A stretch of DNA of 64,000 nucleotides from Sphingomonas profundi (GTDB lineage Bacteria; Pseudomonadota; Alphaproteobacteria; Sphingomonadales; Sphingomonadaceae), in assembly GCF_009739515.1 (NCBI RefSeq), contig NZ_CP046535.1, positions 2,728,001 through 2,792,000 of the forward strand, in the 5' to 3' direction. Under the pieces are notes generated by a model that saw only the letters and a list, made by a program, of their open reading frames with translations, was not told the origin of the DNA and did not search any database. Positions 2,918 to 63,146 of the stretch are shown here, piece by piece (position 1 is the stretch's first letter; the number at the start of each line of letters is the position of its first letter). The translations under genes and the position numbers were made by a program.

Positions 2918-2924
2918 GCGCAGG

Positions 2925-3880: not shown

Positions 3881-3889
3881 CTGTCTCTC

Positions 3890-6006: not shown

Positions 6007-6009
6007 AGT

Positions 6010-6026
6010 TTGCGACTGATTATCAA
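6010..6026 (-). promoter_or_regulatory. Candidate Fur box in front of feoAB
   Basis: On the minus strand the sequence reads TTGATAATCAGTCGCAA. The left half TGATAAT matches the classical Fur half-site; the right half AGTCGCA is weaker but resembles alphaproteobacterial Fur sites. Placed directly at the feoA start, binding of iron-loaded Fur here would block transcription of feoAB. The call rests on motif shape and gene context. Confidence 0.5.
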
Positions 6027-6052
6027 TAAGTGCGGGCTTTTACCAGTGCCCG

Positions 6053-6721: not shown

Positions 6722-6770
6722 GCCGCCAGCATAGGCGCCGTCGCCGGTCTGGCCAAGCGGGGCGACGCCG

Positions 6771-45750: not shown

Positions 45751-48489
45751 TCACTCGCCGAGCAGGATGTCCTCGATCGCCTGCCGCAGGTTGCGGATCG
45801 AGCCGCCGGTTTCGACGCGCGCCCGCAGCCGGCGAAGCAGGCCCGCCTCGTCCATCGCCGCATCCGCCCATGCGACGATATCGGGCGCGCTCTGGCGCAC
45901 ATGCTGCATCTGCCAGCGCAGCGCATCGGGCGCGATCAGCAGGCCGGCGAAGCCCGTCAGCAGCGCCGGCAGCAGCTCGTCGATCGGCGGATCGCGGTCG
46001 TCCGCCGGCACCATGGCGTCCGGCAGCTGGCCGACCTGCCACGCCCCCGGCGGCATCGCCGGATCGGTCGAGACGCCGATCAGCGGCACGATCACGCCCA
46101 TGCGGAGATGCGTCTGCTCCTGCGCGAGCGGAAAGGCGGCGGCGATGTCCGGCCCGTCGGGCGCGCGCCGCCCGTCCAGCCGCTCCATCGCGACGAGATC
46201 ACCGCCGCGCTCGGCGATCGGCGGCGCCCGGTCGATCCCGGCGAGCAGGCGCGGCGCGTCTGTGGCGGGATCGATCCTGCCGGTCTCGGCCAGCAGCGCG
46301 CGCGCGTTGCGGGTGAAGGCGGCCAGCCGCAGCGGCGCCGCACCCAGCGGCTCGATCCCTTCACATCGTGCGGAGATCGCCAGCCCCTCCTCCAGGCCGA
46401 GAAAGCGCGGCAGGTGCCGCCGCACGGCCGCCTCCACCAGCGCGAGGAACGCCTCCACGTCCATGTCGGCGGGCACGCATCCGCTCTCCACCTCCGCTCC
46501 GCCGGCCTCCAGCGCCCACCAGCCGGGCGTGTCGGCCCGCTCCGGCGCGTCCGTCACGGTCACGCCGCAGAGGGTGAAGCGCGCTTCTTGGCCGATCGCC
46601 TCGCGCAGCGCCGCGATGTGGCCGGCGAAGCGTTCGCTCAGCCGCTGGCCGCCGGCGCCGTCGTCGTCGGTGACGAGCAGGGTGAGCGCCGGCTCCAGCA
46701 GGATGCGCAGGCGCGACTTGTCGGGCAGCAGCGCGCGCGCCGCCGGGCCGTAGCGGGTGACGAACTGACGGGTCGCCTCGAAGCGACGCAGATAGTCCTG
46801 ATAGTCGCGCTCCTCCGGGTCGAGCGCGCGCGCACGCTCGGCCTGGGCGATCGCCTCGGCCAGCATCACGTCGGTCGACGGGTCCGCCGCGTCGATCTCC
46901 TCCAGCGCCAGGGCCAGGTTGCCGTGGAAGCGCGCGTCCGGCTCCGCCTCGGCGGCGGCGATCGCGCGGCGATACTCGTCGGCCGCCCCGGTGTGATTGC
47001 CCTGGAAGAAAGCGAGGTTGCCCAGCAGGTTGCGATAGGTGGGCTCGAACGCCGGGCCGGCCAGCGCGCGCACGGCATCGTAGAAGTCGCGGGTCGCGGC
47101 CAGATCGGCATTGGCATAGTCGATCGCGGTCTCCGCCTGCGCGCGCAGCCGGCCGACGATGCCCGGCCGCCAGTCGGGCGCGCGATCGATGCTGTGCGCC
47201 GCCTGCCGCACCAGCGCCGGCCAGTCGCCTGCCTGCTCGGCGATCACTGCCAGGCCCCAGTAGCCGTCGACCGCGCCGGGCGCGATCGCCACGACCCGCT
47301 CGAAATCGGCGGCAGCGGCGGCCGGATCGTTCAGCGCCAGATGCAGGTGGCCGCGATTGACGAACGCGTCGATCCGCTGCGGATCCAGCGCCTCCGCCCG
47401 CGCATACCAGGCGAGCGCCGCCTCGCTCACGCCGTTCGCGCCGTATGCGTCGGCGGTGCGCAGCAGCGCGTCATAGGCGTCGGCCGGCGTGCGGGCCAGC
47501 GCCGCGGCGCGATCGGCCAGTGCCGGGATTTGATCGCCGAGGCGGGGGAACAACGCGGGGTTGCCCCACGTCTCGATCTGCGCCAGCAGGCCGTAGGAAG
47601 GCCAGCTGGGGCAGCCCGCCGCCTGCGCCGCGATGGCCGCCGCGCCGTCCGCATCGCCCAGCTTCAGGCGCAGCCGGGCGCGCACGCTGTGGATCTCGGC
47701 CTGCTGCGGCGCGCGGGCGGCGGCCAGATCCAGCGCGCGCTCGGCCTCCTCCGGCGCCTTGTCCTCCAGCAGGCGGGCGCGGGCGAACAGGCAGCGCCAA
47801 TCGTCCGGCGCCAGCGCCTCCGCCGCCGCCACGGCGCGCTCCGCCGCCACCGCATCGGTGCGGATCACGGCCTCGATCTCGGCCAGGATCGTCAGGATGC
47901 GGGCGCGGACGATCTCGTCCTCGGTGGCGGCCGAGCCCAGGTGGAGGAACAGCGGTAGCGCCTCGCGCCAGCGGCTGCCGTCGGCCAGCGCGATCCAGCC
48001 GGCGATCGTCGCCGGCGCGGGATCGAGGCCGGACGGCAGCGGCAGCGGCGCGCGGGCGATGGCGCCGGCGATGTCGTGGCGGAAGGTCGCGACGGCGGCG
48101 GCGATCGCCTCGTGCCACGCCACCCGCCCCGCCTCGGCATCCGCCCGCAGCATCGCCCCGATCCGCTCGATCCAGGCGCACACGGCCTGCGCCGTCCAGC
48201 GATCGCGCAGCCGGATCAGCACCGTGGCGAGCGCGTCTTGTTCGGGCAGGTCCGCCGCGATCACGGTGAGCGTATCGGCGATGGCGAACAGGGAGGCGGG
48301 CTGCTCCACCTCGGTCCGCATCACGGCCAGATGGTGCGCGGCGGTGCGCAGGTCGACGCCGGCGAGCGTCGCCTCCATCATCGCCAGCGCGAACAGCCCG
48401 GTCAGCGGATCGGCGCGCGAGAGTTGCGTGCCGGCCTCCGCCAGCGCGGCCGCGGTGGATGGCGCCAGCAGCGTTCCGGCCTCCGTCAT
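45751..48489 (-). CDS. TPR protein with a FlhA-C-like (FHIPEP-type) C-terminus; third gene of a CHAT module
   Basis: A 912-residue soluble protein of unknown role. Residues 1-210 are helical without a family I know. Residues 215-560 carry tetratricopeptide-type helix pairs, for example DAFVNRGHLHLALNDPAAA and TYRNLLGNLAFFQGNHTGAA. From about 595 it resembles the cytoplasmic domain of FlhA: the pattern ALTLLVTDDDG, LREAIGQEARFTLCGVTVTD and WALEAGGAEVESG near 600-670. A second block near 795-812 reads LRMGVIVPLIGVSTDP, and the C-terminal signature GGSIRNLRQAIEDILLGE is at 895-912. There are no membrane helices, unlike real FlhA. It overlaps the CHAT gene by 4 bases. Confidence 0.8.
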   Translation of the reverse strand: MTEAGTLLAPSTAAALAEAGTQLSRADPLTGLFALAMMEATLAGVDLRTAAHHLAVMRTEVEQPASLFAIADTLTVIAADLPEQDALATVLIRLRDRWTAQAVCAWIERIGAMLRADAEAGRVAWHEAIAAAVATFRHDIAGAIARAPLPLPSGLDPAPATIAGWIALADGSRWREALPLFLHLGSAATEDEIVRARILTILAEIEAVIRTDAVAAERAVAAAEALAPDDWRCLFARARLLEDKAPEEAERALDLAAARAPQQAEIHSVRARLRLKLGDADGAAAIAAQAAGCPSWPSYGLLAQIETWGNPALFPRLGDQIPALADRAAALARTPADAYDALLRTADAYGANGVSEAALAWYARAEALDPQRIDAFVNRGHLHLALNDPAAAAADFERVVAIAPGAVDGYWGLAVIAEQAGDWPALVRQAAHSIDRAPDWRPGIVGRLRAQAETAIDYANADLAATRDFYDAVRALAGPAFEPTYRNLLGNLAFFQGNHTGAADEYRRAIAAAEAEPDARFHGNLALALEEIDAADPSTDVMLAEAIAQAERARALDPEERDYQDYLRRFEATRQFVTRYGPAARALLPDKSRLRILLEPALTLLVTDDDGAGGQRLSERFAGHIAALREAIGQEARFTLCGVTVTDAPERADTPGWWALEAGGAEVESGCVPADMDVEAFLALVEAAVRRHLPRFLGLEEGLAISARCEGIEPLGAAPLRLAAFTRNARALLAETGRIDPATDAPRLLAGIDRAPPIAERGGDLVAMERLDGRRAPDGPDIAAAFPLAQEQTHLRMGVIVPLIGVSTDPAMPPGAWQVGQLPDAMVPADDRDPPIDELLPALLTGFAGLLIAPDALRWQMQHVRQSAPDIVAWADAAMDEAGLLRRLRARVETGGSIRNLRQAIEDILLGE

Positions 48490-49991
48490 GCCTTGCCCAT
48501 CTCGTTGCGCAGGCGCGGTTCCGGCGCGGCGGCGGTGGCCTGCACCAGCACGTCGCGGCCGCAGCCCGGCACCCAGCAGATCGCGTCCATCGGGCGATTG
48601 GCATGGCCCGCCCGGCAGATGCCGTAGGTGCGCCGCCGCTCACAGCCGCAGTGGCGATCGCCCATCGCGATCAGGCCGCCGCAATCCTCCTTGAACGGGC
48701 AGGCCTGCTGGTTCAGCTGCGGCAGCGGCATGGCCGGCCGGTCCGTGCGCGCCGGCGGCGGCTCCGGCGCGGGCGATCTCACCGCGCCCGGCGTGGCGAG
48801 CACGGTCGAATCGCCGCACGCGTAGATCACGGGCGTCGCGAAGCGGCGATGGCTCCACGCCGGCGAGCGTCGGCCGAGCCGGCGGCGGGCGAGCCGCACC
48901 GCCTCGTCCACCGGCACGCCCTCGCCCACGCTGCGGTAGAAATCGGTGGTGAACCGCTCCGCATCCTCGTTGCTGATGGCATATTGCATGGCGATCACGA
49001 ACGGCACGCCGGCACTGATCAGGGTCATCGCCGCTCCGCGAAACGCCTCCGCCTCCGGCGCCGACCGGCCGACGTCGCAGGCGTGCAGGAACACCAGCCG
49101 CGGCCGCCGGCGCGGCTCGAACTGGGCGCCCAGATCGGCGATCGGGTGCCATTCGGCATTGTCGACGGGCACGTCCTCCTGCGTGGCGGCGGCTCTGGCG
49201 GCCAGCAGGCGCCGCTGCTCGGCCGATCGGTGGAAGGCCAGCTCGCTCTCCAGCCCGCGATGGCGCCCGTGCAGGATCAGGTGCAGGATGTCCGGCATCC
49301 GGTCCTCCAGCGCCTGGCCCAGCTGCCGCCACTCCATTTTCTCCAGCGTGCGAACGGTCACGTCGATCCGCTCGCCAAGCTTCGCCTCGATCGTCGCCGC
49401 GGCACCCTGCGCCTTGTCGAGCACGGCGTGCGGGCTGGGGGATGCCCAGCCGACCAGTATGTCCAGCCGGTCGCGCGGCTCGCCGATGCGCGGCGGCGGC
49501 GGCGGCGTCGTGCGCACCAGCGTGGCCTTGTCGCCCAGGAAATAGCCCGGCCCGTCGCGATCGGCGACGAACATGATCTCCCACGGATAGTTGGCGAGCG
49601 GGCCGGCCGCCGCGCTGAAGGCCAGGGTGATGCGGAAGCAGGCGGTCGACTCCGCCTGCTCGCTCTCGAACCGGTTCAGCCGGTCCAGCAGCTCGTTTGC
49701 CAGCGGATGCGGCAGCGGGTCGGCGCGCCGCTCGAACGCGGCGGTCTCGACCAGGCGGCTGGCCTGGCCGCCGAGCAGGGTCTCGAACAGCACGGCGCCG
49801 AGCAAAGCGAGATCGTCCTTGTCGCCGAGGCCCGGCTCGTCCTTCTGGTCGGTGACGAGGCGGTCCATGCGGCGGACGACCCGGGCGGTGAGATCGCTGT
49901 GGCGGACAGGCGCGGTGAACACCTCGCCCGCCACCTCCAGGCGCACATTGTCCGCGCCCACCGTCAGCTTGCAGTGCGTGTCCGCCGCCAT
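48486..49991 (-). CDS. CHAT-domain cysteine peptidase with C-terminal Cys/His cluster
   Basis: A 501-residue caspase-like protein. The CHAT domain covers about 120-395. The catalytic histidine is in HLILHGRHR (H241) and the cysteine in VFLHACDVGRS (C305), both in the expected contexts. It ends with VIYACGDSTV, a normal closing strand. After a proline-rich linker (about 404-425) there is a dense cluster with C431, C437, C448, C450, C459, H463, C472 and C477, likely binding two zinc ions. The N-terminal 120 residues contain paired helices. CHAT peptidases act as proteases in defence and programmed cell death systems; the target here is unknown. Confidence 0.87.
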   Translation of the reverse strand: MAADTHCKLTVGADNVRLEVAGEVFTAPVRHSDLTARVVRRMDRLVTDQKDEPGLGDKDDLALLGAVLFETLLGGQASRLVETAAFERRADPLPHPLANELLDRLNRFESEQAESTACFRITLAFSAAAGPLANYPWEIMFVADRDGPGYFLGDKATLVRTTPPPPPRIGEPRDRLDILVGWASPSPHAVLDKAQGAAATIEAKLGERIDVTVRTLEKMEWRQLGQALEDRMPDILHLILHGRHRGLESELAFHRSAEQRRLLAARAAATQEDVPVDNAEWHPIADLGAQFEPRRRPRLVFLHACDVGRSAPEAEAFRGAAMTLISAGVPFVIAMQYAISNEDAERFTTDFYRSVGEGVPVDEAVRLARRRLGRRSPAWSHRRFATPVIYACGDSTVLATPGAVRSPAPEPPPARTDRPAMPLPQLNQQACPFKEDCGGLIAMGDRHCGCERRRTYGICRAGHANRPMDAICWVPGCGRDVLVQATAAAPEPRLRNEMGKA

Positions 49992-49998
49992 GGCGCCG

Positions 49999-51093
49999 TC
50001 AGGGCAGCCGCAGCAGGTCGCTGATGCTGTCCTGCACGGCGGTGCCGGGCGCGGCGGCGTCGTTCGCTACGGCCAGGCGCATCGCGTCGTCATGCACGGC
50101 GCGCAACTGCTCCAGCCGCTCGGCCATCAGCGCGCGGCCCTGCGTCCAGGTGAGATCGGGGCTGACGGCGACGGCGCTGAACATGGCGGCGAGATTGGCC
50201 TTCGCCTCGTCCCAGGCGCCGGCCGAGCTCTTGGCGGCGGCGGCCAAAGCGGCGATCCACAGCGGGTGGAACGGCAGCGCATCCAGATCGCGGCGGCCGG
50301 GCGGCGGCACCCGGGCGATCTGGTAGAGCATGAAATCGGCCTCGCGATAGGGCAGCGCCGCCTCCGCCGTCGGGCCTTTCCGGAGCACGTCGTCGATCAC
50401 CCAGAACTCGTCCGGGTCCGGCGCGTCGTCCGAATCGATCAGCGCCCAGCGGCCGGTGGGGAACGCATCGCCGCTGTCCGGATCGATCGTCTGGCGCAGG
50501 CCGATCAGCGGCTTCACCCCGTTCAGCCCCATGATCCGATCGAACCCGTCCAGCACGATGCCGCCGATCCTGGTGTAAACCTCCAGCCCCAGGCCGGGGG
50601 CGAGCGCGGCGCTGGCCGATTCCACCACCTCCACCACGTCCCTGGCGACATTGTGGGTGGGCATCTGGTTGAGCACGAAGGTGAAGGTGAAGGGACCGCC
50701 GCGATAGGGATGCGGGCCGAACAGCATCATGTTCTTCAACACCGTGCCGCTCGGCAGCCCTTCCTTGGGGCTCGGCCCGACGACGACGGGCACGGTGCGG
50801 GCCTTGCCGTCGTAGAGGAACTCGGTGCTGGCGAACACGGACGGCTCGATCTCGGTGAACCAGCGGCGCTGATCGGCCAGGAACAGCTGGTTCAGCCGCA
50901 CCATCACGTAATCGCGCTTGGCGACGATGTCCGCGTCGTCCGCCGCGATCGGCGGCTGCGGCGCTGGCGCCTGCGGGCGGACGTGGCCGTCGGGAATGCG
51001 GATCGGCTCGCGCGGGCGGCGCGGCTCGGACTGGATCACCGCGAGGGCGCGGTTCCAGATATCGGCCACGCTTCTGATCGCCCGCCTCGCCAT
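49999..51093 (-). CDS. Unrecognised protein, first gene of the CHAT module
   Basis: A 364-residue soluble protein that I cannot assign. The N-terminus has helices and a proline-rich linker (about 25-48), then a mixed alpha/beta region with short hydrophobic strands such as ARTVPVVVGPSP, PFTFTFVLNQMP and GRWALIDSDDAPDPDEFWVIDDV. The C-terminal 110 residues are alanine-rich helices. There is no signal peptide or membrane span. The CHAT gene begins 7 bases after its stop. Base composition matches the surroundings. It may be the sensor, adaptor or substrate of the peptidase; this is inference from position. Confidence 0.75.
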   Translation of the reverse strand: MARRAIRSVADIWNRALAVIQSEPRRPREPIRIPDGHVRPQAPAPQPPIAADDADIVAKRDYVMVRLNQLFLADQRRWFTEIEPSVFASTEFLYDGKARTVPVVVGPSPKEGLPSGTVLKNMMLFGPHPYRGGPFTFTFVLNQMPTHNVARDVVEVVESASAALAPGLGLEVYTRIGGIVLDGFDRIMGLNGVKPLIGLRQTIDPDSGDAFPTGRWALIDSDDAPDPDEFWVIDDVLRKGPTAEAALPYREADFMLYQIARVPPPGRRDLDALPFHPLWIAALAAAAKSSAGAWDEAKANLAAMFSAVAVSPDLTWTQGRALMAERLEQLRAVHDDAMRLAVANDAAAPGTAVQDSISDLLRLP

Positions 51094-51156: not shown

Positions 51157-52302
51157 TCAGCCCGTCACCTTCGGGTCGAGCGGGGTCGGCGCGGCGTCGA
51201 CGTCCTGCAGGGTGGCCTCGTCGGTCACGTCGGCATAGACCGGATAGTCGGTATAGCCCTCCTCGCCCTGCGTGTAATAAGTGGCGATCTCCGGCCGGTT
51301 GAGCGGCTGGCCGGCGCGATAGCGCGCCGCCAGATCGGGGTTGGCGATGCACGCCTGGCCGTAGGCGACGATATCCGCCGTGCCCGCCGCGATCGCCGCC
51401 GCGCCGCTGGCGCGGGTGAAGCCCGCGACCACCATCGCCGGCCCGTCGAACAGCGGCCGCAGCGTGCCGTAGACGTCCCACCCCACGGCATAGTCGCCGA
51501 GCTGGAGATAGGCGATGCCGCGCGCGGAAAGCTGGCGCACGACATGGCTGTAGGTGGCGACCGGATCGTCGTCGAACACGTTGTGGAACGACCAGCCGGG
51601 CGACAGCTTCACCGCGACGAACTTCGGCCCCGCCACCTCCGCCATGGCATCGACGCAGGCGAGCAGGAAGGCGGCGCGCTTCTCGACGCTGCCGCCCCAC
51701 GCATCGGTGCGCAGATTGGTGTTGGTGGAGAGGAACTGCATCGGCAGGTAGCCGCTGGCGGCGTGGATCTCCACCCCGTCCAGCCCGGCATCCAGCGCCG
51801 CCTGGGCGCACGCCTTGTATGCGTCGATCGTCTCCAGCACCTCGGCATGGCTCATCGCCCGCGGCTCCGGATAGGGTCGCTTCGGACGCGGACAGGTGAC
51901 GGTATAGTGGCGCGCCAGCGGATCGGGCCGCACCGCCGAGGCGGAGACCGGCTGCCGCCCGTTCAGCATCAGCGGATCGGACAGGCGGCCGACATGCATG
52001 ACCTGGGCGAAGATCGCCCCGCCCTCGCCATGCACCGCCTCCGCCACGCGGCGCCACCCGGCCACCTGCGCCGGGGTGTGGAGGCCGGGGGTGAACAGAT
52101 ACCCGTTACCCATGTCGCACGGGTAGACGCCCTCCGTCACGATCAGCCCCAGGCCCGCGCGCTGGCGATAATATTCCACGTTCAGGTCGGTCGGCACGCC
52201 GTCCAGAGTGGAACGCTGACGCGTCATCGGCGCCATCGCCACGCGGTTGCGGATCGTGACGCGGCCGAGATCCAGCGGGGCGAACAACGAGTCGATGGTC
52301 AA
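51157..52302 (-). CDS. Old yellow enzyme-type NAD(P)H:flavin oxidoreductase (ene-reductase)
   Basis: A 381-residue FMN enzyme that reduces activated C=C bonds. The N-terminal barrel begins LFAPLDLGRVTIRNRVAMAPMTRQRS. The substrate-binding region is VEIHAASGYLPMQFLSTNTN near 184-203, where the usual HGANGYL is HAASGYL. VVAGFTRASG and YGQACIANPDLAARY close the FMN site. It is the last gene of a minus-strand run with two SnoaL-like proteins, the P450 and the TonB receptor, and overlaps the SnoaL gene by 4 bases. Substrate unknown. Confidence 0.92.
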   Translation of the reverse strand: MTIDSLFAPLDLGRVTIRNRVAMAPMTRQRSTLDGVPTDLNVEYYRQRAGLGLIVTEGVYPCDMGNGYLFTPGLHTPAQVAGWRRVAEAVHGEGGAIFAQVMHVGRLSDPLMLNGRQPVSASAVRPDPLARHYTVTCPRPKRPYPEPRAMSHAEVLETIDAYKACAQAALDAGLDGVEIHAASGYLPMQFLSTNTNLRTDAWGGSVEKRAAFLLACVDAMAEVAGPKFVAVKLSPGWSFHNVFDDDPVATYSHVVRQLSARGIAYLQLGDYAVGWDVYGTLRPLFDGPAMVVAGFTRASGAAAIAAGTADIVAYGQACIANPDLAARYRAGQPLNRPEIATYYTQGEEGYTDYPVYADVTDEATLQDVDAAPTPLDPKVTG

Positions 52303-52856
52303 CGAACGGGCTCCTTGAAGGTGAGGACGGCATAGCTGTGGTCACTGCGATCGCGCGCGACGGGCTTGGCCGCGACCTCCGGGTTGTTCGGCGTCACCGC
52401 GATCGGCGCATCCGCCTCGCCCATGCGCGGGCCGACCGGATCGATACGATCCCAGTCGTGCAGCGACTGGCGGTGGCGGATCGCCCAGACGCCGTCGATC
52501 CGCTCGAACGTGTCGACGTAGCGGCCCTGCCCGAACATGTCGTGCAGGGTGCCGTCGTCCGCCGTCATCCGCAGGGTGACGGTCCAGTAGGACTCGCTGG
52601 CGGCGCGATCGCCGTCCACCACGATCAGGATGTTCGAGATCACGTGGCGCGTCGCCACCATCGCCGCATGGACCGGCCACAGCCACGCGACGAAGCCCTC
52701 GGCGGTGCCGGCGAACAGGGGCGCGTGATCGTCCGTGCCGCCGGGATGCCAGCAGGAAAGGGCGAGGTCCGCGTCCATCCGGTCCATCGCGCGGGCGTAG
52801 CGGTGCAGCACGTCGGTGATGGCGGCACGGGCGGCAAGTTCGTCGAGCGTCGTCAT
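52299..52856 (-). CDS. SnoaL/NTF2-like protein 1
   Basis: A 185-residue protein of the SnoaL-like superfamily (cone-shaped alpha+beta barrel). The family pattern is seen in LAARAAITDVLHRYARAMDRMDADLALSCWHPG near 6-38 in two parts, and in VDTFERIDGVWAIRHRQSLHDW. Members act as isomerases, dehydratases, cyclases or oxygenase beta subunits. The ATG at 52856 has GGGGG upstream; an ATG at 52874, overlapping the previous stop (ATGA), is a strong alternative. One of three such proteins in this cluster. Confidence 0.85.
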   Translation of the reverse strand: MTTLDELAARAAITDVLHRYARAMDRMDADLALSCWHPGGTDDHAPLFAGTAEGFVAWLWPVHAAMVATRHVISNILIVVDGDRAASESYWTVTLRMTADDGTLHDMFGQGRYVDTFERIDGVWAIRHRQSLHDWDRIDPVGPRMGEADAPIAVTPNNPEVAAKPVARDRSDHSYAVLTFKEPVR

Positions 52857-52870
52857 CTCATCCCCCGCCT

Positions 52871-53395
52871 TCATGCCCCGCCCGCCTGCATGCCCTGCTC
52901 GCCCACGTCCGCCCGGGTGCGCGGGCCGCGCGCGGCGGCGCGATCGAACAGGCCGCGATCGCCCTGTTCCCACATGATCGTCAGGCCCAGCCGCGCGATC
53001 CGCCAGCCGCCGCCGGCGCGTACCACGCGATGCGTGTAGTAGCCGCCGATCAGGTGATGCCGTTCCGCGCCGTCCTCCACCAGCATGTGCCGCGCCGTCA
53101 TCTGCGTGCGCAGGATCGCCTCGTCGGCGCCGAGATCGATCGCGATGTTCGTCATGCGGTGCTGCGTCGCGTCGAACGGGGCGAGCGTGGCGCGGACGGT
53201 CGCCACCCACTCGTCGGCCGGCATCGACGCGTCCACGCCGGACCAGGCGAGATCCACCTCCAGCCGGTCGGTGAAGATCGAGCGGTAGAGCGGCCAGTCC
53301 CGCCGGTCGATGCCGTAGGCGTAGCCGTTCAGCAGATCGGCGATCGCGGCGCGATCGATCAGGTCGGCGAGCGTCGCCGGAGCCGCGCCGATCAT
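52871..53395 (-). CDS. SnoaL/NTF2-like protein 2
   Basis: A 174-residue SnoaL-type protein with LADLIDRAAIADLLNGYAYG and IDRRDWPLYRSIFTDRLEVD near 9-48, RHMLVEDGAERHHLIGGYY, and WRIARLGLTIMWEQGD. Like its neighbours it could be a ring isomerase, a lyase, or a small subunit for a ring oxygenase. The ATG overlaps the stop of the P450 gene (ATGA), so it is translationally coupled to it. Confidence 0.85.
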   Translation of the reverse strand: MIGAAPATLADLIDRAAIADLLNGYAYGIDRRDWPLYRSIFTDRLEVDLAWSGVDASMPADEWVATVRATLAPFDATQHRMTNIAIDLGADEAILRTQMTARHMLVEDGAERHHLIGGYYTHRVVRAGGGWRIARLGLTIMWEQGDRGLFDRAAARGPRTRADVGEQGMQAGGA

Positions 53396-54621
53396 GCCGG
53401 CTGCCAGACGAGCGGCACGGCCGTGCAGGCGCCGACATTGCCGCCCTTCATCGTCACCGGCCGATCGGGATCGAGCGCGAACGGCGGCAGCCGCCGCAGC
53501 CACTCGCGCATCACCACGATCACCTCCATCCGCGCGAGCCCCGCGCCGACGCAGCGATGCGGGCCGGCGCCCATCGTGGTGTGCTTCACCGCGTTCAGCT
53601 TCCGATCGAAGCGCACCTCCTGCGGCGCGTCGAAGCTGCGCGGATCGAGATTGTGCAGCACGCTGGGCAGGTAGACGAGATCGCCCGCCTTCATCTCCAC
53701 CCCGTCCACCGCCACGTCGGCCACCAGGTTGCGGCTGACGGAGACGGTGGGGTAACGCCGCATCAGCTCGTCGGCGGCGGCCGGGATCAGATCGGGCTCG
53801 GCCCGCAGCCGCGCCTGGTCGGCCGGATTGCGGGCGAGGTGCAGCGCGACCATGCCCAGCATCGCCGCCACCGTGTCGAGCCCGCCGAACAGCAGGTTGC
53901 GGCACATCCGCTTGGCCTCGTCCACCGTCCACGCCCGGCCCTGTATGGGCACGGAGAGGATGCGGCTGAACAGATCGTCGCCCGGCATCTCCAGCCGCTG
54001 TTGCAGGAACGGCCAGAGATAGTCGTCCACCGCCTGCGCCAGTTCCTCCACCGTCATCGATCCGTCCGGCCGGGTCAGCTGTTTGCCGAAGACGCGCAGC
54101 CGCGGGCGATCCTCGGTCGGCACGCCGATCAGGGTGAGGAACAGGTTGACCGGCAGCACCTCGGCAAATTCCTCGACGAACTCGCAAGTGCCGCGCCCGA
54201 TCAGGCCGTCGATCAGGTCGTTCGCCAAGGCGACGACCTGCGGCTCCAGCGGGGCGATGTGGCTGCTGGCGAAGCCGCGCATCACCGCGTTGCGATACGG
54301 CCCGTGCTCCGGCGGATCGAGCTGGAGCGGGATGAAGCGCATCACGTCGCCCAGCCCCGGCGTCACCGCCAGCACCTCGCTGGAAAGGGCGGCGGCATCG
54401 CCCCACAGCTGCCGCACCGCCTCGCCGCCGGTCGCGATCCAGTGGCCGCCGTTGCGCGGTGTCCAGACGAGATCGGGGCCGCCCGGCCGTTGCAGCGCCA
54501 GCCACGCCGCGAAATAGTCTTCCTCCACCCCCGCCGGCTGGAAGATGTCGAAGTCTACGATCCGATCGGGCGGTACGTGGTCGGGTATCGCCGGCGGGGC
54601 GGCGGTGGCGAGGCTGGTCAT
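53392..54621 (-). CDS. Cytochrome P450
   Basis: A 409-residue soluble bacterial P450 mono-oxygenase. The I-helix has LLFGGLDTVAAMLGM near 239-253 (the AGxDT-type oxygen site) and ADELMRRYPTV near 285-295 is the ExxR region. The haem ligand is the cysteine in MGAGPHRCVGAGLAR near 356-370. The first position of the usual FGxGxHxC is not phenylalanine. No ferredoxin or reductase gene is adjacent, so redox partners must come from elsewhere. It lies 13 bases after the TonB receptor stop in the same direction. Confidence 0.94.
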   Translation of the reverse strand: MTSLATAAPPAIPDHVPPDRIVDFDIFQPAGVEEDYFAAWLALQRPGGPDLVWTPRNGGHWIATGGEAVRQLWGDAAALSSEVLAVTPGLGDVMRFIPLQLDPPEHGPYRNAVMRGFASSHIAPLEPQVVALANDLIDGLIGRGTCEFVEEFAEVLPVNLFLTLIGVPTEDRPRLRVFGKQLTRPDGSMTVEELAQAVDDYLWPFLQQRLEMPGDDLFSRILSVPIQGRAWTVDEAKRMCRNLLFGGLDTVAAMLGMVALHLARNPADQARLRAEPDLIPAAADELMRRYPTVSVSRNLVADVAVDGVEMKAGDLVYLPSVLHNLDPRSFDAPQEVRFDRKLNAVKHTTMGAGPHRCVGAGLARMEVIVVMREWLRRLPPFALDPDRPVTMKGGNVGACTAVPLVWQPA

Positions 54622-54634
54622 GCGGGCCTTTCGT

Positions 54635-57094
54635 CTAGCGGTTGCCGAAGCGCACGGTGCCCTGGAGCAGCACCTCGCGCGGGCGGCCGATGCTGATCCA
54701 GATCTCGTCCGGGGTGCCGAACGGCTTGTCCGATCCCGCGACGCCGTAATATTTGTTGGTCAGGTTGCGGCCGATCAGCGCCAGTTCCCACGCATCATTC
54801 TCCGCATGCAGCCGCAGGCTGGCGTTGAGGCGGGCGAAGCCCTGCTGCCAGGCGACCGGATTCTGGTTCTCCTGCAGCCAGTAGCCGCTCGTATAATTCG
54901 CGTCGCCCGAGACGCCGAGCTTCACCGCCGTGGTGATCAGCGTATCGTAGCTGAAACCACCGGTGACGTTCCACTTCGGCGCGCGCACCAGCGCCGTGCC
55001 GGAGAGATCCTGCGTGTTGGCGGCGGTGCAGCCCTGCGCCAGCGTCTGCCCCGGATAGCAGGGGGCGGCCGGGAAGCTCAGATATTTGGCGCGGTTGTAG
55101 CCGGCGGCGGCGCGCAACTGGAAGTCGCGCGTGATCTGGTAGCTGCCGTCCACCTCCGCGCCGGTGGTGCGGGCCGAGGCGGCGTTGCGGATCGTGAACG
55201 AGGGCGGCGAGGGGTTGAACGAGGTGAGCTGCAGGCCGTTGAACTTGTAGCGGTAGAGCGCGGCGTTCAGCGCCAGCCGTCCGCCCATGAACGATCCCTT
55301 GGCGCCCAGCTCGCCACCCTCGGCCGATTCCGAGCGGAAGCCGAGATCCGCCGCCGTCTGCCCGAACGACAGGATCGACGGGTTCGAGAAGCCGCCCGAC
55401 TTGTAGCCCGTCTTGTACGCGCCGTAGAGTGTGGTGTTGCTGGTCGGATGGTAGGAGAGCGTCGCCTCGGGCGACCAGTCGTCGTCGCTGAAGCGGCCGG
55501 ACGTGAACTGCCCCTCGGTCGCGACGAGGCCGAAGGCGACCAGGTTCTGATTGACGAAGGAGTTGCCCAGGCGGACTCGCTTGCGCTCATGCGTGTAGCG
55601 CACGCCGCCGGCCAGCTCGATCTGCGGCGTGATGTTCCAGATCAGCTGGCCGAAGGCGGAATAAGCGCGCGTCTTGTTGAAGCTGAGCAGCGACCAGTTG
55701 TTATACTGGCCGTTGCGCGCATCGGCGCCGACATTGGCGATGAAGCCGTTGCCGCGCGTATCGCGCCCGCCATCCTCGAAATAGAGGCCGGCGGCGAAAT
55801 CGATCGGTCCGTCGAAGCTGGAATTGGCGCGCAGCTCCTGCGTGAAGGCGTGGCTCTTGTCCAGGTTGGCGCCGAACACGGTGGGCGTGGCATCGAAGGC
55901 GAAATTGTCGAAGCTGTCATTCTTGTAGCGCCAGTAGCCCGTCACCGAGGTGAGCGCGACCGGGCCGACCTTGTAGTCGAGCGTGAGCGACGACAGCACG
56001 GCGGAGTAGCGCGTGATCGGCACGCCGCCGTTCGATTCCGGATAGCCGGCGGCCAGCACCGGGTTCAGCGCGCCCAGCGAGCGGCGGCCGTTCAGCTTGC
56101 AGTCGCCATAGGGATCCTGCACGAAGACGCCGCTCAGCAGATCCAGCGTCTGCGGGTTGCCCTGGCACTTCAGCTCCGTGCCGGATGTCTCGCCATGATC
56201 GCGCAGGCGCGATCCGAACAGCTTGAACACGGCGCTGAAATCGCTGCCCGGCCGCCACTCGATCGTGGCGCGGCCCAGTATCTCGCGCGTGCCCGGATCG
56301 CGGCCGTGCGCGGCGCCGGGAGAGGGGTTGGCCGGATCGCTGGGGATGCCGAGCGGGCCGGCGACGTTGCGGATATAGCCGGCCATCTTGCTGCCGCGCC
56401 CCGCCAGGCGGAAGCCGAGCGTATCGGTGATCGGGCCGGAGACCGCGCCCTCGACGAAGCGTTCGTCCGCCTTGAACTCGTAGCCGGCGCGGGCATAGCC
56501 CTCGAAGTCGCGCGTCGCGCCGGCGGTATGGACGGAGACGACGCCGCCCGGGCTGTTCTTGCCGAAGAACAGCGCCTGCGGGCCTTTCAGCACCTCCACC
56601 TGCTGCAGATCGAAGAAGCTCTGGGTGACGAGGCGCCCGCGGCTGATCTGCAGGCCGTCCAGGTTCAGCGCCACCGTCTGGTCGATGCCGGCGTCGAGCG
56701 CGGAGGAGCCGATGCCGCGGATGGTGAAGGAGGCGCCGGCGCCGCCGCCGCCGGACTTCGCCAGGATCACCTGCGGCACCAGCTGGCCGATCTTGCCCAG
56801 ATCGGTGGCGGCGTAGCGGTTCAGGTCGCTGGCGCTGACGGCGGAGACGGCGACCGGCACCTGAAGCAGCGTCTCGTCGCGCTTGCGCGCCGTGACGATG
56901 ATCTCCTCCACGCCGGTATCGGCGCGGTCGGGCGCGGCGCCGCCGGCGGCCCCCGGCTGCTGCGGCTGCGGCTGCGCCGACAATGCGTCCTGCGCCAGCG
57001 CCGGCGCGGCCATGCCGGCCAGAATGGTGGTGGCCAGCATCATCGCGGCCGGCAGCAGGCGCGCGCGCCCGCCGACGAACATACCGTTCCTCAT
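54635..57094 (-). CDS. TonB-dependent receptor of the catabolic cluster
   Basis: An 819-residue outer-membrane receptor. A signal peptide ends near PALAQ (residue 35); a Gln/Pro/Ala-rich linker precedes the TonB-box region VEEIIVTARKRDETLLQVPV near 63-82. The plug shows GASFTIRGIGSSALD and VEVLKGPQALFFGKNSPGG, and the barrel ends LLQGTVRFGNR, with a C-terminal aromatic strand. Located between the P450 and the Rieske oxygenase, it probably brings their hydrophobic substrate across the outer membrane. Confidence 0.94.
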   Translation of the reverse strand: MRNGMFVGGRARLLPAAMMLATTILAGMAAPALAQDALSAQPQPQQPGAAGGAAPDRADTGVEEIIVTARKRDETLLQVPVAVSAVSASDLNRYAATDLGKIGQLVPQVILAKSGGGGAGASFTIRGIGSSALDAGIDQTVALNLDGLQISRGRLVTQSFFDLQQVEVLKGPQALFFGKNSPGGVVSVHTAGATRDFEGYARAGYEFKADERFVEGAVSGPITDTLGFRLAGRGSKMAGYIRNVAGPLGIPSDPANPSPGAAHGRDPGTREILGRATIEWRPGSDFSAVFKLFGSRLRDHGETSGTELKCQGNPQTLDLLSGVFVQDPYGDCKLNGRRSLGALNPVLAAGYPESNGGVPITRYSAVLSSLTLDYKVGPVALTSVTGYWRYKNDSFDNFAFDATPTVFGANLDKSHAFTQELRANSSFDGPIDFAAGLYFEDGGRDTRGNGFIANVGADARNGQYNNWSLLSFNKTRAYSAFGQLIWNITPQIELAGGVRYTHERKRVRLGNSFVNQNLVAFGLVATEGQFTSGRFSDDDWSPEATLSYHPTSNTTLYGAYKTGYKSGGFSNPSILSFGQTAADLGFRSESAEGGELGAKGSFMGGRLALNAALYRYKFNGLQLTSFNPSPPSFTIRNAASARTTGAEVDGSYQITRDFQLRAAAGYNRAKYLSFPAAPCYPGQTLAQGCTAANTQDLSGTALVRAPKWNVTGGFSYDTLITTAVKLGVSGDANYTSGYWLQENQNPVAWQQGFARLNASLRLHAENDAWELALIGRNLTNKYYGVAGSDKPFGTPDEIWISIGRPREVLLQGTVRFGNR

Positions 57095-57140
57095 CCCCGT
57101 TCCCCCTCTGTTGTCGTTGTCGCTCGTACGCGGCGGGCCG

Positions 57141-58604
57141 TCAGGCGCCCGCCCGGGCCTCCCCTTGCGCGATCATCCGGGCGATCAGCACGTGCAGCAG
57201 CCGGATGCGCATTTCCGAATAGAGCGCGAAGTGGACCAGCCCGGTGCCGGAGGCGCGAAGCCCCTCCTGCACCTGCGGCAGATTGTCCATGTCCTGCTCG
57301 AACACCGGGCCCAGTGCGCCGAGCATCGGCGAGGAGGACCAGTCCTCGTCCAGCGCCAGCCGGTGCTCCTTCACCGGCTGCGGCCGCGGCCCGTTTTTGG
57401 GCACCCGCTTCAGGATGATCACGTCCATGATCGAGGTTTCGGGATCGAGCCCGTTCGGCCGCCAGCGATAGACCACGTTGGGCGCGTAGCCGGCCCAGAA
57501 GCTCATGTGCGGAAAGACGTTGTAGAGCAGCGCGTCGATGATCTCGGCATCGGAGACCTGGGCATAATCCCACCCGTCCTCCGCGCCCAGCGCCGCCCGC
57601 GTCACCTCGCAGGTGTGCATCCGCGCCGTCACGCCCTCCTCCAGCGCATCGGGCGTGCCGACGCTCTCGCGCGCCCGCACCGGCCGCTTGGCGACCTCGC
57701 CGTCCTTGCGGGAACTCCGGCCGCCGGCGACATGGCTGCCGCCCGCCGCCGCCATCGCCTTCAAGATGTCCATGTCGCCGAACCGGCGATCGGCGAGCAT
57801 CGGGCTCACCACGCCGGTGGCGGTGAACTGGCGCGTCACATGATCGCTGAGCGCGTCATACTGGCTGTTCACGTCGCCCAGGAACGGCGCCAGCTGCGGA
57901 TGGGTGACGATGGTGTGGTGGCTCTCCATGAACGCCTCCGCCATCACCTTCCAGTTGCACGGCACCACCTTGGAGGTGTGCGCCGCCTTGTAGCGGTTGG
58001 CGAAATCGTAGCGGTCGAAATGGTCGGCCAGCGGCTGGAGCGTGTCCATCAGCGGTTTCGCCGCCGGATCGAAATTGACGAAGACGAAGCCGCCCCACGT
58101 CTCCACGCGCACTTCCGGCAGGCTCATGTCCATCCGCTGGAACTGCGGGAAATCCCAGCCGATCGGATTGTGCTTGAAGGCGCCCGAGCAGTGCCACGCC
58201 AGGCCGTGATACTTGCAGCGCAGGTCCACCTTGTTGCCCGGCCCGTCGGCCAGCTTGCGGCCGCGGTGCAGGCAGCTGTTGTAGAACGCCTTGATGCCGC
58301 CATCCTCCTGGCGGACGACGAGGATGTTCTTGCCGACATTCTCATAGACGAACACGTCGTTCGGGTTCGGTATGTCCTCCTCGCGGCAGGCCCACTGCCA
58401 CACCTTCAGCCAGACGTGGCGGACCTCCTTCGCGAAATGATCGCGATCATAATAGTCGCTGGCGGGGATGCCCTCGTCGCCCAGGTCGCGCGTCGGCCCC
58501 TGGCGCAGATGATCGGGGATGGCGCGCGTATCGCGCTCCAAAATGTCCTCATAGGATTCTGACGGATGCCGGTCGGCGCGGAAACGCGCGGTCGTGTCGT
58601 CCAC
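57141..58604 (-). CDS. Rieske aromatic-ring-hydroxylating oxygenase, large subunit
   Basis: A 487-residue oxygenase alpha subunit. The Rieske [2Fe-2S] ligands are in SCLHRGRKLADG and LRCKYHGLAW near 110-140 (CxH and CxxH). The mononuclear iron ligands are in EAFMESHHTIVTHP near 224-237. No beta subunit, ferredoxin or reductase is adjacent. The GTG at 58604 is preferred because GGAGAG precedes it closely; an upstream in-frame start at 58664 would add 20 residues. Such stand-alone alpha subunits oxidise steroids, terpenoids, carnitine-like compounds and others. Divergent from the TetR gene. Confidence 0.92.
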   Translation of the reverse strand: MDDTTARFRADRHPSESYEDILERDTRAIPDHLRQGPTRDLGDEGIPASDYYDRDHFAKEVRHVWLKVWQWACREEDIPNPNDVFVYENVGKNILVVRQEDGGIKAFYNSCLHRGRKLADGPGNKVDLRCKYHGLAWHCSGAFKHNPIGWDFPQFQRMDMSLPEVRVETWGGFVFVNFDPAAKPLMDTLQPLADHFDRYDFANRYKAAHTSKVVPCNWKVMAEAFMESHHTIVTHPQLAPFLGDVNSQYDALSDHVTRQFTATGVVSPMLADRRFGDMDILKAMAAAGGSHVAGGRSSRKDGEVAKRPVRARESVGTPDALEEGVTARMHTCEVTRAALGAEDGWDYAQVSDAEIIDALLYNVFPHMSFWAGYAPNVVYRWRPNGLDPETSIMDVIILKRVPKNGPRPQPVKEHRLALDEDWSSSPMLGALGPVFEQDMDNLPQVQEGLRASGTGLVHFALYSEMRIRLLHVLIARMIAQGEARAGA

Positions 58605-58690
58605 ATCTCTCTCCGCAGGTTCTGCCTTCGCGAGGCCGCGAGTTTGCTGCGGCAAAACTCTCATTCCCCGCCCCGGGCGGATACCTAGCG

Positions 58691-58703
58691 TTTCTGATAG
58701 AAA
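58691..58703. promoter_or_regulatory. Palindrome, candidate TetR operator half 1
   Basis: tttct and agaaa form a perfect 5-bp inverted repeat around gat. It lies 45 bases before the TetR start codon and about 87 bases before the oxygenase start. Confidence 0.45.
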
Positions 58704-58705
58704 AC

Positions 58706-58719
58706 AGACCGATCGTTCT
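58706..58719. promoter_or_regulatory. Palindrome, candidate TetR operator half 2
   Basis: agaccgatcgttct is symmetric except at one position per arm, with a cgatcg core. It lies 3 bases from the preceding palindrome, so a TetR dimer pair could occupy both. Confidence 0.45.
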
Positions 58720-58747
58720 TTTTCATGCCGATGCTAAGGTTCGCGCT

Positions 58748-59434
58748 ATGGACTGTCGCATGACCCATGACGCCCTCGTCACCTTGCTGCCCGACAGCCT
58801 GACCCATGACGGCAACATCGGGGAGGCGAGCTGGCAGCGGCGCAAGAGCCTGGAGACCCGCAACGTGGTGCTGGAGGCCGCGCTCGACTGCCTGTCGGAC
58901 GGGGGCTATGCCGGCTGCTCGCTGCAGCTGGTGGCCGATCGCGCCGGCCTGTCGCGCGGGGCGATGCTGCATCATTATGCCGCCAAGCTGGACCTGATGG
59001 CGGCGGTGATCGAATATGCGCTCTACAAGCGGATGGAGCGGTTCCTCGATCGCATCCGCCGCCTGTCGGACGAGGAGCGCACGGCACGCTTCCACGGCAT
59101 CACCGTCGCCTATGAGAGCTGCCACGAGCGGGAGTATCGCGCCTATCTGGCGCTGCACCTCGCCTCACGCACGGATGCCGATCTGCGCCCGATCTTCGTC
59201 GAGCGCGCCCGCCGCTACGACCGCGTGTGGCGCGCCGAGATCGAGAAGGTCTTTCCCGAGTGGCGCGACGCGACGCAACTGGATGCGATGAACGATTTCG
59301 TCTGGGTGGTGGTGGAAGGCGTGGCGCTCAATTCGGACATCTGGGAGGATCCGGCGCGGGCGCGCACGGTGATCGATCTCGTGGTGAACGTCGTCCAGCA
59401 GTTCCACGCCGGCGGGCTGGCGACAGAGAGGTGA
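58748..59434 (+). CDS. TetR/AcrR-family transcriptional regulator
   Basis: A 228-residue repressor-type regulator. The helix-turn-helix (about 37-80) reads RNVVLEAALDCLSDGGYAGC, SLQLVADRAGLSRGAMLHHY, then AAKLDLM. The C-terminal ligand domain is helical and ends with VVEGVALNSDIW. The first 30 residues before the DNA-binding domain are longer than in most TetR proteins. Divergent from the Rieske gene; it likely represses this cluster until substrate binds. AAGG lies before the ATG. Confidence 0.92.
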   Translation: MDCRMTHDALVTLLPDSLTHDGNIGEASWQRRKSLETRNVVLEAALDCLSDGGYAGCSLQLVADRAGLSRGAMLHHYAAKLDLMAAVIEYALYKRMERFLDRIRRLSDEERTARFHGITVAYESCHEREYRAYLALHLASRTDADLRPIFVERARRYDRVWRAEIEKVFPEWRDATQLDAMNDFVWVVVEGVALNSDIWEDPARARTVIDLVVNVVQQFHAGGLATER

Positions 59435-59461
59435 CGGCGCGACCGTCGGGTGCCTAGTGCC

Positions 59462-59875
59462 TCACTCCTGCATCAGCAGGGTGGCGTCGTCCGGCAGCGG
59501 CAGCCAGGGATGGGCGCGCTTCACCCAATAATGCGCCGTCGGCTTCAGATCCGCCACCTCGTCGAACGTGCCCGCCTTCACGAAGATGACGCCCTGCTCG
59601 CGCGCCCGCTCCGTATCGGTCAGCACCGGCGATCCGCAGCGGCCGCAGAACTGGCGGAACACCGTCTGCCCGCTGGTGCCGCGATCCTCGTAGACGGTGA
59701 GCGCGCCCGTCACCGCCAGCGCATCGCGCGCAAACACCGCCACCACCGAGAGCGCGCTGCCGGACTGGCGCTGGCAGTTGCGGCAGTGGCAGATCGCCGT
59801 GGCCAGCGGCTCCGCCGGCACGGTGTAGCGCACCTGCCCGCAGAGGCAGCCGCCGGTGCGGGTGGCGTCGCTCAT
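59462..59875 (-). CDS. GFA-family zinc protein
   Basis: A 137-residue protein of the glutathione-dependent formaldehyde-activating (GFA) family. Zinc-binding cysteines occur in GGCLCGQVRY near 8-17, CHCRNCQRQSG near 30-40 and FCGRCGSPV near 76-84. Most GFA proteins have no known reaction; they are common in catabolic clusters. It converges on the TetR gene and lies 10 bases downstream of the SDR gene. Confidence 0.9.
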   Translation of the reverse strand: MSDATRTGGCLCGQVRYTVPAEPLATAICHCRNCQRQSGSALSVVAVFARDALAVTGALTVYEDRGTSGQTVFRQFCGRCGSPVLTDTERAREQGVIFVKAGTFDEVADLKPTAHYWVKRAHPWLPLPDDATLLMQE

Positions 59876-59885
59876 CGCCTTCTCC

Positions 59886-60710
59886 TCACGTCGCCGTCCA
59901 GCCGGCGTCTACGGCCAGGCAGGCACCGGTCACGACCCGCGCCGCCTCGCCGGCGAAATAGAGCACCGCCGCGGCCGACTGCTCGGGCGTGATCCGCTCC
60001 TTGATGTGGTGGACGGTAAGGAAGGCGTCATAGGCCTCGTCCTCGGTGATGCCGAGCTGTCCGGCGAGCTGGCCGGCCGAGTGCGTCACCATCGGCGTAT
60101 CGACGAGGCCGGGGCAGATCGCGTTCACGGTGATGCGGTGCGGCGCCAGTTCCGCCGCCATCGTCTTGGTGAGGCCGACCACGCCGTGCTTGGCCGCGCA
60201 ATAATGGCCGAAGCCGGGCGCGCCCACCAGCCCGGCGGCGGACGCGACGTTGACGATCCGCCCGCCACCGGCGGCGATCAGGTGCGGCACGACGGCGCGG
60301 GTGACGCGCCACAGGCCGATCAGGTTCACCTCGATCATCGTCACGAACTGCTCGTCCGGCATCTCGTGCACCGGCCGGTTGCCGGACAGGATGCCGGCAT
60401 TGTTGACGAGGATGTCGATGCGGCCGAGCTCGCCCACCGCCGCGCCGACGAAGGCATCGATCTGCGCCCGATCGCGGATGTCGCAGGTGCGCGCCACCAC
60501 CCGCACCCCCAGAGCACGGATCTCGTCCGCCACCCCCTCCAGATCGGCGGTGGTCGCGAGCCGGTAGTCGACGGTGGCGAGATCCGGCGTGCCGACGTCG
60601 CAGATCGCCACGTCCGCCCCCTCGAGCGCCAGCGCGAGCGCCATCGCCCGCCCCTGCCCGCGTGCCGCGCCGGTGATGATCGCCGTGCGTCCGGCGAACT
60701 GCTGCGTCAT
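59886..60710 (-). CDS. Short-chain dehydrogenase/reductase
   Basis: A 274-residue NAD(P)-dependent oxidoreductase. TGAARGQGRAMAL near 14-26 is the cofactor loop, ILVNNAGIL near 99-107 follows, and the catalytic Ser, Tyr and Lys are in VASAAGLVGAPGFGHYCAAK. ICDVGTPDL after strand 2 suggests NAD preference. The family includes steroid and alcohol dehydrogenases. The ATG at 60710 is chosen; a longer open frame covers the SnoaL gene in another frame. Confidence 0.93.
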   Translation of the reverse strand: MTQQFAGRTAIITGAARGQGRAMALALALEGADVAICDVGTPDLATVDYRLATTADLEGVADEIRALGVRVVARTCDIRDRAQIDAFVGAAVGELGRIDILVNNAGILSGNRPVHEMPDEQFVTMIEVNLIGLWRVTRAVVPHLIAAGGGRIVNVASAAGLVGAPGFGHYCAAKHGVVGLTKTMAAELAPHRITVNAICPGLVDTPMVTHSAGQLAGQLGITEDEAYDAFLTVHHIKERITPEQSAAAVLYFAGEAARVVTGACLAVDAGWTAT

Positions 60711-60736
60711 GCCTCGCTCCTCCCCGATCCTGGCCG

Positions 60737-61297
60737 TCAGTTCCGGTAGACCGGATCGGAACGGTCGCGCCGGCCCCAGGTGAAATCCCAGCCGGGCACC
60801 GCGCCGAACGGCGGCGACGCATCGTCGGTGCGGGTGAGATCGAGCACCACGCGGCGATCGGCGATCTTCCACACGCCGCCGCGCCGCTCGAAGCGGTCGA
60901 CGTAGCGGTTGTAGACGGTCGCGTTGCGGCCGTTCATGTCCTCGCTGAACGAGATGCAGTAGGTTTCGGTGAAGGCGGTATCGCCCTCGATCTCGCAGGC
61001 GAAGTTGCCGATGAAGTGCTGGCAGCCGCGGATATTCTCGCGCTCCCACGCGACGATCCACTCGGCAAAGGCGTGGCCCGGCCCCTTGAACATGCCGTGA
61101 TCGTCGATCGCGTCGTCATGGTAGACGGAGCGCAGCAGCTCGACATCGCAGCGGTCGACGCCGCGGCAGTAGCGGGTCAGCACGTCGTAAATCTCGGCGC
61201 GGCTGAGCAGCGCGTCCAGCCGCGCATCCCTGCCCGGCGCATCGCTGCCGGGCACATCGCTCACGGGCGCAACGCTCTCCGGCATGTCGCTCTCCAC
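60737..61297 (-). CDS. SnoaL/NTF2-like protein 3
   Basis: A 186-residue SnoaL-type protein with LLSRAEIYDVLTRYCRGVDR and CDVELLRSVYHDDAIDDHG near 30-68, and a variable N-terminal tail. The DD-H arrangement (DDAIDDHGMF) is typical of the subgroup that includes ring-processing proteins and oxygenase small subunits. It lies 26 bases before the SDR gene, in the same direction. Confidence 0.86.
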   Translation of the reverse strand: MESDMPESVAPVSDVPGSDAPGRDARLDALLSRAEIYDVLTRYCRGVDRCDVELLRSVYHDDAIDDHGMFKGPGHAFAEWIVAWERENIRGCQHFIGNFACEIEGDTAFTETYCISFSEDMNGRNATVYNRYVDRFERRGGVWKIADRRVVLDLTRTDDASPPFGAVPGWDFTWGRRDRSDPVYRN

Positions 61298-61394
61298 CGG
61301 CGGGAGCGGCCTGGCGCCGCCTCTCCGTACCGCTTCTAGCGAGCGCGATGCGGGCGGCGGCAGCTGGCGATATGACTAGCCGGTCAGGCGCGCG

Positions 61395-63146
<1,752 letters not shown>

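Follow-up and report, generated by a model that had tools for sequence, protein, structure and literature searches.

The window analysed here is a stretch of 64,000 nucleotides from Sphingomonas profundi (contig NZ_CP046535.1, positions 2,728,001 to 2,792,000). It carries an operon of three genes that encode, in order, a 364-residue protein here called P1, a 501-residue CHAT peptidase of the caspase-like clan and a 912-residue protein with TPRs and a degenerate FlhA-C-like end. Members of the P1 family are found beside peptidases of unrelated folds in conflict-type operons. One non-enzymatic protein combined with interchangeable peptidases is the pattern of the gasdermins and the protease-gated nucleases, and P1 is therefore proposed to be a peptidase-activated effector. 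Tentatively, with a confidence a little short of even, the trio is read as a conflict-type module in which the TPR/FlhA-C protein would serve as sensor and scaffold, the CHAT peptidase as transducer and P1 as the effector. A bolder proposal, rather doubtful at present, is that P1 is the founding member of a new class of killer proteins, distinct from both gasdermins and nucleases, that peptidases activate. Bacteria of five or more phyla would have coupled these proteins to peptidases of the CHAT, caspase, trypsin, papain-like and CHAP-like kinds and to a wide range of sensors, the FlhA-C-derived scaffold being the sensor of the CHAT branch.

A conserved three-gene unit

The three genes lie on the minus strand. 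Seven bases separate the P1 gene from the CHAT gene (49992-49998), and the CHAT gene overlaps the last gene by four (48486-48489, ATGA), a spacing that makes co-translation of the trio plausible. A preliminary description, made from the sequence alone, had reported the three linked genes with these sizes, gap and overlap, an intact CHAT dyad (His241/Cys305), a C-terminal Cys/His cluster in the peptidase and the absence of any recognisable relative of the 364-residue protein, and on all of these points it was right. It had made its case depend on the genes co-occurring elsewhere and on their homologues having no settled housekeeping role. No such role was found, and co-occurrence was: the complete trio in one other locus, P1 and CHAT in a second, and the two in another order in Rhizobium sp. 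TH2 (L017).

Three loci emerged when 84,980 species genomes were scanned with a P1 alignment. In L012, a metagenome-assembled genome (MAG) of the Terriglobia (Acidobacteriota), P1, CHAT and TPR-FHIPEP genes stand in the same order as in the window, the last two again overlapping by four bases. In L010, an Acetobacteraceae MAG, a P1 with 58% identity is followed nine bases on by a CHAT gene, at which point the contig stops. The third, L011, is from Pseudanabaena. Could the three genes simply be unrelated neighbours? The exact, complete trio was found in only one other place, but there it has the identical order in another phylum, with 25-33% identity in each of the three proteins and tight spacing in both, and L010 contradicts chance as well, so that this explanation has next to no probability. 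Judged by gene order, the trio is a real, rare and conserved unit and no chance arrangement, because the order recurs in L012 and the P1-CHAT pair in L010.

P1 and its peptidase partners

The P1 loci were gathered by searches of plasmids, genomes and viral contigs, all of them through P1, and number 21, from at least five phyla (Pseudomonadota, Acidobacteriota, Cyanobacteriota, Chlorobiota and Bacillota). In 18 of the 21, a peptidase adjoins P1 or belongs to the same operon (15 clear, three on weaker evidence), usually within about 25 bases and on the same strand, the distance being 134 bases in L016. The partner is a CHAT protein in the window, L010, L012 and L017, and a caspase of family C14 in L004, L011 (through a near-identical sequence) and L026, where the caspase is followed by an EAD1-trypsin. 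EAD8-trypsins are the partners in L027, L028, L029, L084, L085, L087 and L089. L088 also has one beside P1 (2800-3800), but the trypsin gene, read by eye, is split over two frames by a frameshift or an assembly error. A papain C1 peptidase is found in L016, a Sporomusa plasmid. The weaker cases are L088, the CHAP-like L006 and L025; in L025 a CHAT-like protein, recognised by its dyad motifs and a weak profile match, is followed by an nSTAND1 NTPase and then P1. As assigned by similarity, the peptidases beside P1 come from classes with no relation to each other, namely CHAT proteins, C14 caspases, EAD-trypsins, papain C1 and CHAP-like proteins. When the loci are clustered at 50% identity, nine of 11 lineages have a peptidase, seven of them with a match at the level of Pfam. 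On an assumed chance rate of 10% for a neighbouring peptidase, the binomial probability of at least seven in 11 is about 2e-5.

In a tree of 15 P1 proteins, a branch associated with CHAT and caspases stands apart from one whose partners are trypsins, papain or CHAP-like proteins; the Rhizobium sequence forms a long row of uncertain placement. The peptidase partner was probably swapped at least once, since the caspase-linked P1 proteins of Pseudanabaena fall among the CHAT-linked ones, with fork supports of 81-95%.

Several P1 operons appear, from their gene content, to be conflict systems of described kinds. L004 contains MoxR, VMAP-C and a vWA-type/caspase fusion, a large protein related to SAV_2336 in which AAA and caspase domains are recognised; L029 has MoxR and VWA_CoxE. 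In L084, an EAD8-NACHT gene adjoins the EAD8-trypsin, an arrangement that fits the EAD coupling principle of Kaur et al. (PMC7159879). A gene of the DUF4011-helicase type lies upstream in L028, L084 and L089, and its 3' part in L085; the DUF4011/MTES_1575 assignment is confirmed by Pfam in L028 and L084 and made by sequence resemblance in L085 and L089. The helicase of L028 corresponds to the PADLOC candidate PDC-S37.

Some of these operons are of interest in their own right. The four cyanobacterial loci L028, L084, L085 and L089 share a recurrent operon of a DUF4011/MTES_1575 helicase-nuclease, an EAD8-trypsin and P1, to which L084 adds the EAD8-NACHT gene at the end; this operon looks like a defence system of its own. 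In L087, also from a cyanobacterium, four genes stand consecutively on one strand (1474-8402): those for an HSP90-like ATPase, a TPR protein, the EAD8-trypsin and P1. On plasmid pTH2a of Rhizobium sp. TH2 (L017, 3847-9107), a GAF/PAS sensor-like protein, a CHAT protein whose N-terminus looks receiver-like by eye, and P1 form a single operon, after which come an S8 subtilase gene and a PLD-like gene; this resembles a two-component pathway that leads to a caspase-type peptidase. L006 (12198-14084) belongs to the same family as the window's genome, and there the gene after P1 encodes a CHAP-like protein that also has a peptidoglycan-binding domain, the CHAP match being weak (E 0.09).

Copies of P1 are found on plasmids and in one prophage, the only copy that the scans of viral contigs produced; no phage record matches that P1, and viral contigs scanned for the CHAT protein gave no copy of it. 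The prophage-like contig (L030, 9983-11080; IMGVR_UViG_3300042934_001343) bears a lone P1 on the opposite strand, with genes that by eye are of terminase and DNA-methylase type on either side and no peptidase nearby. Its nearest relative is the P1 of the Sporomusa plasmid, and it could be an accessory effector carried by the phage, or else a decoy.

The nature and role of P1

P1 has no match in Pfam, NCBIfam, PADLOC, PHROGs or the PDB, and its family is described in none of the libraries searched nor in the limited literature searched. Its best profile match in the PDB, Glr2806, extends over 40 residues at E 0.01 and was rejected as due to chance. The family has a common architecture: a predicted N-terminal helix containing aromatic residues, a variable linker, a conserved core, a second variable linker and a short C-terminal tail. 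The amphipathic character of the helix is common to the family (hydrophobic moment against shuffled sequences, Fisher p 3e-7 for 15 members, some of them not independent of each other), and the tail gives a weak family-wide amphipathic signal (Fisher p 0.001). The alignment columns that stay constant over the 21 members hold Y, L, P, G and I together with D269, S311 and D313, and there is no conserved His or Cys. P1 is probably not an enzyme, as judged from the scarcity of universal polar residues and this lack of conserved His or Cys.

What, then, does P1 do for its peptidases? It could be a regulator, i.e. a chaperone, an inhibitor or an adaptor between peptidase and sensor, with another cell protein as the true target. 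Such a role would agree with P1 being always a separate protein beside the peptidase and lacking recognisable enzyme residues. There are precedents: CanB forms complexes with the CanA caspase (PMC12799240), and the Trypco and EACC1 families are described as co-occurring with peptidases (PMC7159879). However, a single direct regulator would need to fit CHAT/C14, trypsin and papain-like folds, and the P1 copies of a prophage and a plasmid have no peptidase next to them; regulation is thus a somewhat unlikely answer, though one to be taken seriously. The preliminary description had suggested that the 364-residue protein might sense the trigger. P1 would then switch on whichever peptidase it is encoded with; P1 is indeed common to the loci while the peptidases differ, and the lone phage-borne copy could serve as a decoy. 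On the other hand, many loci already have sensors or platforms of their own (STAND/NACHT, MoxR-vWA, GAF-PAS with REC-CHAT, TPR scaffolds), and the core of P1 is conserved across phyla and not variable. The suggestion found no support and is improbable, the pairing with unrelated peptidase folds being more easily read as that of a substrate. A peptidase substrate is the favoured role, because a direct inhibitor or activator must fit unrelated folds, and a substrate needs only a cleavable linker.

The peptidase and the scaffold

The CHAT assignment of the middle protein rests on a PF12770 match over residues 116-374 (E 3.2e-18, 66.6 bits against a cut-off of 24) and on similarity to the CHAT protein of L012 (BLASTP 3e-34) and the CHAT fragment of L010 (5e-26). 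Both residues of the dyad are kept in L012. The zinc-ribbon-like Cys/His cluster, for which Pfam has no domain, is missing from the L012 protein, the sole other full-length close CHAT protein. A PADLOC SAVED_CHAT match (2e-9) reflects the common CHAT domain only.

The TPRs of the 912-residue protein are recognised by Pfam. Its FlhA-C-like end, also claimed in the preliminary description, emerges through the L012 homologue and not from the window sequence alone. The L012 protein matches FHIPEP (E 3.2e-13, three stretches) and is homologous to residues 29-698 of the window scaffold (BLASTP 1e-27). A profile of the two proteins together matches FlhA-C in hhalign (probability 89-93%, E 2e-6 to 2.5e-7); the window protein by itself has no FHIPEP match in Pfam and reaches a probability of 1% in single-sequence hhalign. 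The second FlhA-C-like stretch is not significant by itself. Searches with the C-terminus of the window scaffold alone gave no convincing relative in 337 genomes of the class, and a FHIPEP search of the Cyanobacteriota for soluble FlhA-C proteins was dominated by complete FlhA. Unlike FlhA, the scaffold has no N-terminal membrane export domain, its N-terminal part containing TPRs and giving no FHIPEP match, and no export genes adjoin it. The host genome has its own complete FlhA at another site. In flagella, FlhA-C is the docking site for chaperones and cargo, a role that would suit a platform that binds a trigger protein.

Features and genomic setting

Features of the three-gene module, by position in the window
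Feature	Coordinates	Strand	Basis
P1, first operon gene, member of an unnamed family, predicted peptidase-processed effector	49999..51093	-	ORF; 21-member family beside peptidases
P1 residues 1-22, predicted amphipathic, aromatic-containing N-terminal helix	51028..51093	-	alignment; hydrophobic moment
P1 residues 349-364, short C-terminal tail ending SISDLLRLP	50002..50049	-	alignment
CHAT (caspase-like clan) peptidase, 501 residues	48486..49991	-	PF12770 match; BLASTP to L012 and L010 CHAT
Catalytic His241 codon (HLILHG)	49269..49271	-	read from sequence; kept in L012
Catalytic Cys305 codon (HAC)	49077..49079	-	read from sequence; kept in L012
C-terminal Cys/His cluster C431-C477, zinc-ribbon-like, CPFKEDC...CGC...C..GH...C...GC	48561..48701	-	sequence; alignment
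TPR/FlhA-C-like scaffold, 912 residues, predicted sensor or platform	45751..48489	-	TPR_8 8e-8; homology to L012 TPR-FHIPEP
TPR region, residues about 347-424	47218..47451	-	Pfam TPR_8/TPR_11/TPR_16
First FlhA-C-like stretch, residues about 593-741	46267..46713	-	hhalign, window and L012 profile against FlhA-C
Possible second, degenerate FlhA-C-like stretch, residues about 780-909	45763..46152	-	aligned to second FHIPEP-like stretch of L012

The neighbours of the operon in the window are genes for a Na/H exchanger (NHE), AsmA, an old-yellow-enzyme (OYE) homologue, a P450, a TonB receptor, a Rieske oxygenase and an acyl-CoA dehydrogenase. Composition gives no signal of recent transfer, since the G+C content of the trio, overall and at third codon positions (GC3), is that of its neighbours. 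Might the operon thus serve ordinary regulatory proteolysis or protein handling, such as stress proteolysis with an FlhA-C-like docking platform? Its position among catabolic and transport genes and its host-like G+C would agree with such a role, as would the GAF/PAS and receiver-like domains of L017, which are those of a signalling pathway, and the developmental roles of HetF-type CHAT proteins (PMC8406250). However, the distribution is very patchy: the P1 query finds a match in two of the 201 genomes searched in the family, one being that of the window and the other that of a distant relative; both congeners lack one, and there are copies on plasmids and in a prophage. Together with the recurrent pairing with EAD, ternary-system, STAND and PADLOC-candidate genes, this leaves ordinary proteolysis with only a small share of the probability.

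Upstream of the module, positions 51157-63146 hold a catabolic-looking cluster (the OYE homologue, a SnoaL-like protein, the P450, the TonB receptor, the Rieske ring-hydroxylating oxygenase and the acyl-CoA dehydrogenase). Neither congener has a close orthologue of this OYE. As for a syntenic empty site, one congener has, in place of the module, a gene after its NHE orthologue that looks glycosidase-like by eye from its translation, on a contig too short for a clean junction.

The proposed mechanism

In the conflict-type reading, the trio would be a single co-transcribed module. The TPR/FlhA-C-like protein would form a soluble platform, its FlhA-C part derived from the region of flagellar FlhA at which chaperones and cargo dock; this platform would sense a trigger by protein binding and then engage the CHAT peptidase. 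Once activated, the peptidase would cut P1, most likely in a variable linker flanking the N-terminal helix or the C-terminal tail, at about residues 25-60 or 335-350. The cut P1 would then act as a non-enzymatic effector that binds a membrane or a protein, leading to cell death or arrest and thereby to the protection of kin, perhaps for an antiviral purpose; membrane action of P1 is speculative. In other bacteria, P1 would answer to different sensors and to peptidases of the caspase, trypsin, papain-like or CHAP-like kinds.

Several results weigh against this reading. P1 is constant in the comparison by construction, the loci having been found through it, and three of them (plasmid L005, prophage L030 and L086, which has SIR2_2 and nSTAND1 downstream) have no adjacent peptidase. 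No transmembrane stretch is predicted in P1, the highest 19-residue hydropathy mean being about 1.0-1.6. AlphaFold2 models of P1, built from five-row alignments, have pLDDT (predicted local distance difference test) values of 48.5 and 53.6, too poor to use; Foldseek searches of the PDB with these poor models gave no match at E <= 0.001, with TM-scores of about 0.1-0.2. The FlhA-C-like end of the window scaffold is supported by way of the L012 homologue. Finally, the preliminary description had proposed a look for defence surroundings: these are present for P1 relatives, in operons of conflict type, but not for the window copy, whose flanking genes include no defence genes, only catabolic and transport ones.

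Comparison with known systems

The preliminary description had drawn a parallel to Craspase, in which gRAMP/Cas7-11 acts with TPR-CHAT (Csx29). The resemblance stands in so far as TPR and CHAT modules act together there in a defence-type protease. However, TPR and CHAT are here separate proteins, encoded by open reading frames with their own starts and stops; the TPR protein has an FlhA-C-like end; and no gRAMP/Cas7-11 gene lies near the window operon, which is flanked by NHE, AsmA, OYE and other catabolic genes. P1 relatives are found in or beside operons of the MoxR-vWA ternary, Trypco, EACC1 and EAD-coupled kinds (L004, L029, L084), with ternary parts around those of L004 and L029, but MoxR, vWA and VMAP/iSTAND genes are absent around the window copy. 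By its gene content, the window module is neither Craspase nor, at its own locus, a MoxR-vWA ternary system.

P1 relatives also resemble Trypco and EACC1 (PMC7159879) in adjoining EAD1- or EAD8-trypsins or caspases. Unlike Trypco1/2, EACC1 and the EAD-coupled families, P1 matches none of their Pfam families and pairs with CHAT, papain and CHAP-like peptidases as well, and EACC1 has a single conserved transmembrane helix, which P1 lacks. A P1-like family is not described in the passages of Kaur et al. 2020 (PMC7159879) covered here.

Bacterial gasdermins are encoded beside caspase-like and other proteases (PMC9612521). They share with P1 a non-enzymatic nature and a place next to NACHT-type genes and to peptidases of caspase-like, trypsin-like and further kinds, and some of their loci lie near genes resembling peptidoglycan hydrolases (lysozyme or amidase), which is echoed by L006. 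Unlike them, the P1 family, with proteins of about 360 residues, has no sequence match to gasdermins in Pfam or PADLOC, and a profile of 15 members found no gasdermin among PDB chains at E up to 10. Gated nucleases are paired with trypsin or caspase, and canu is a three-gene system whose loci encode TPR-type partners (PMC12799240). The likeness to these protease-gated nucleases (Hachiman- or AVAST-associated, and canu) is that one target protein is re-used with trypsin or caspase. The differences are that P1 has no conserved metal ligands and matches neither the metallo-beta-lactamase fold nor any nuclease family, and that the peptidase here is CHAT. In Pfam, none of 15 P1 members matches a metallo-beta-lactamase nuclease, EACC1/EACC2 or Trypco.

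The cut targets of the peptidases are unknown in most bacterial conflict systems, and P1 is a strong candidate for a common one. Lacking a match in the current libraries, it is also a marker for further systems that these have missed. Gasdermins and gated nucleases are the experimentally worked cases of one effector re-used with several proteases; if the proposal is true, P1 would be the third example of an effector re-wired to many.

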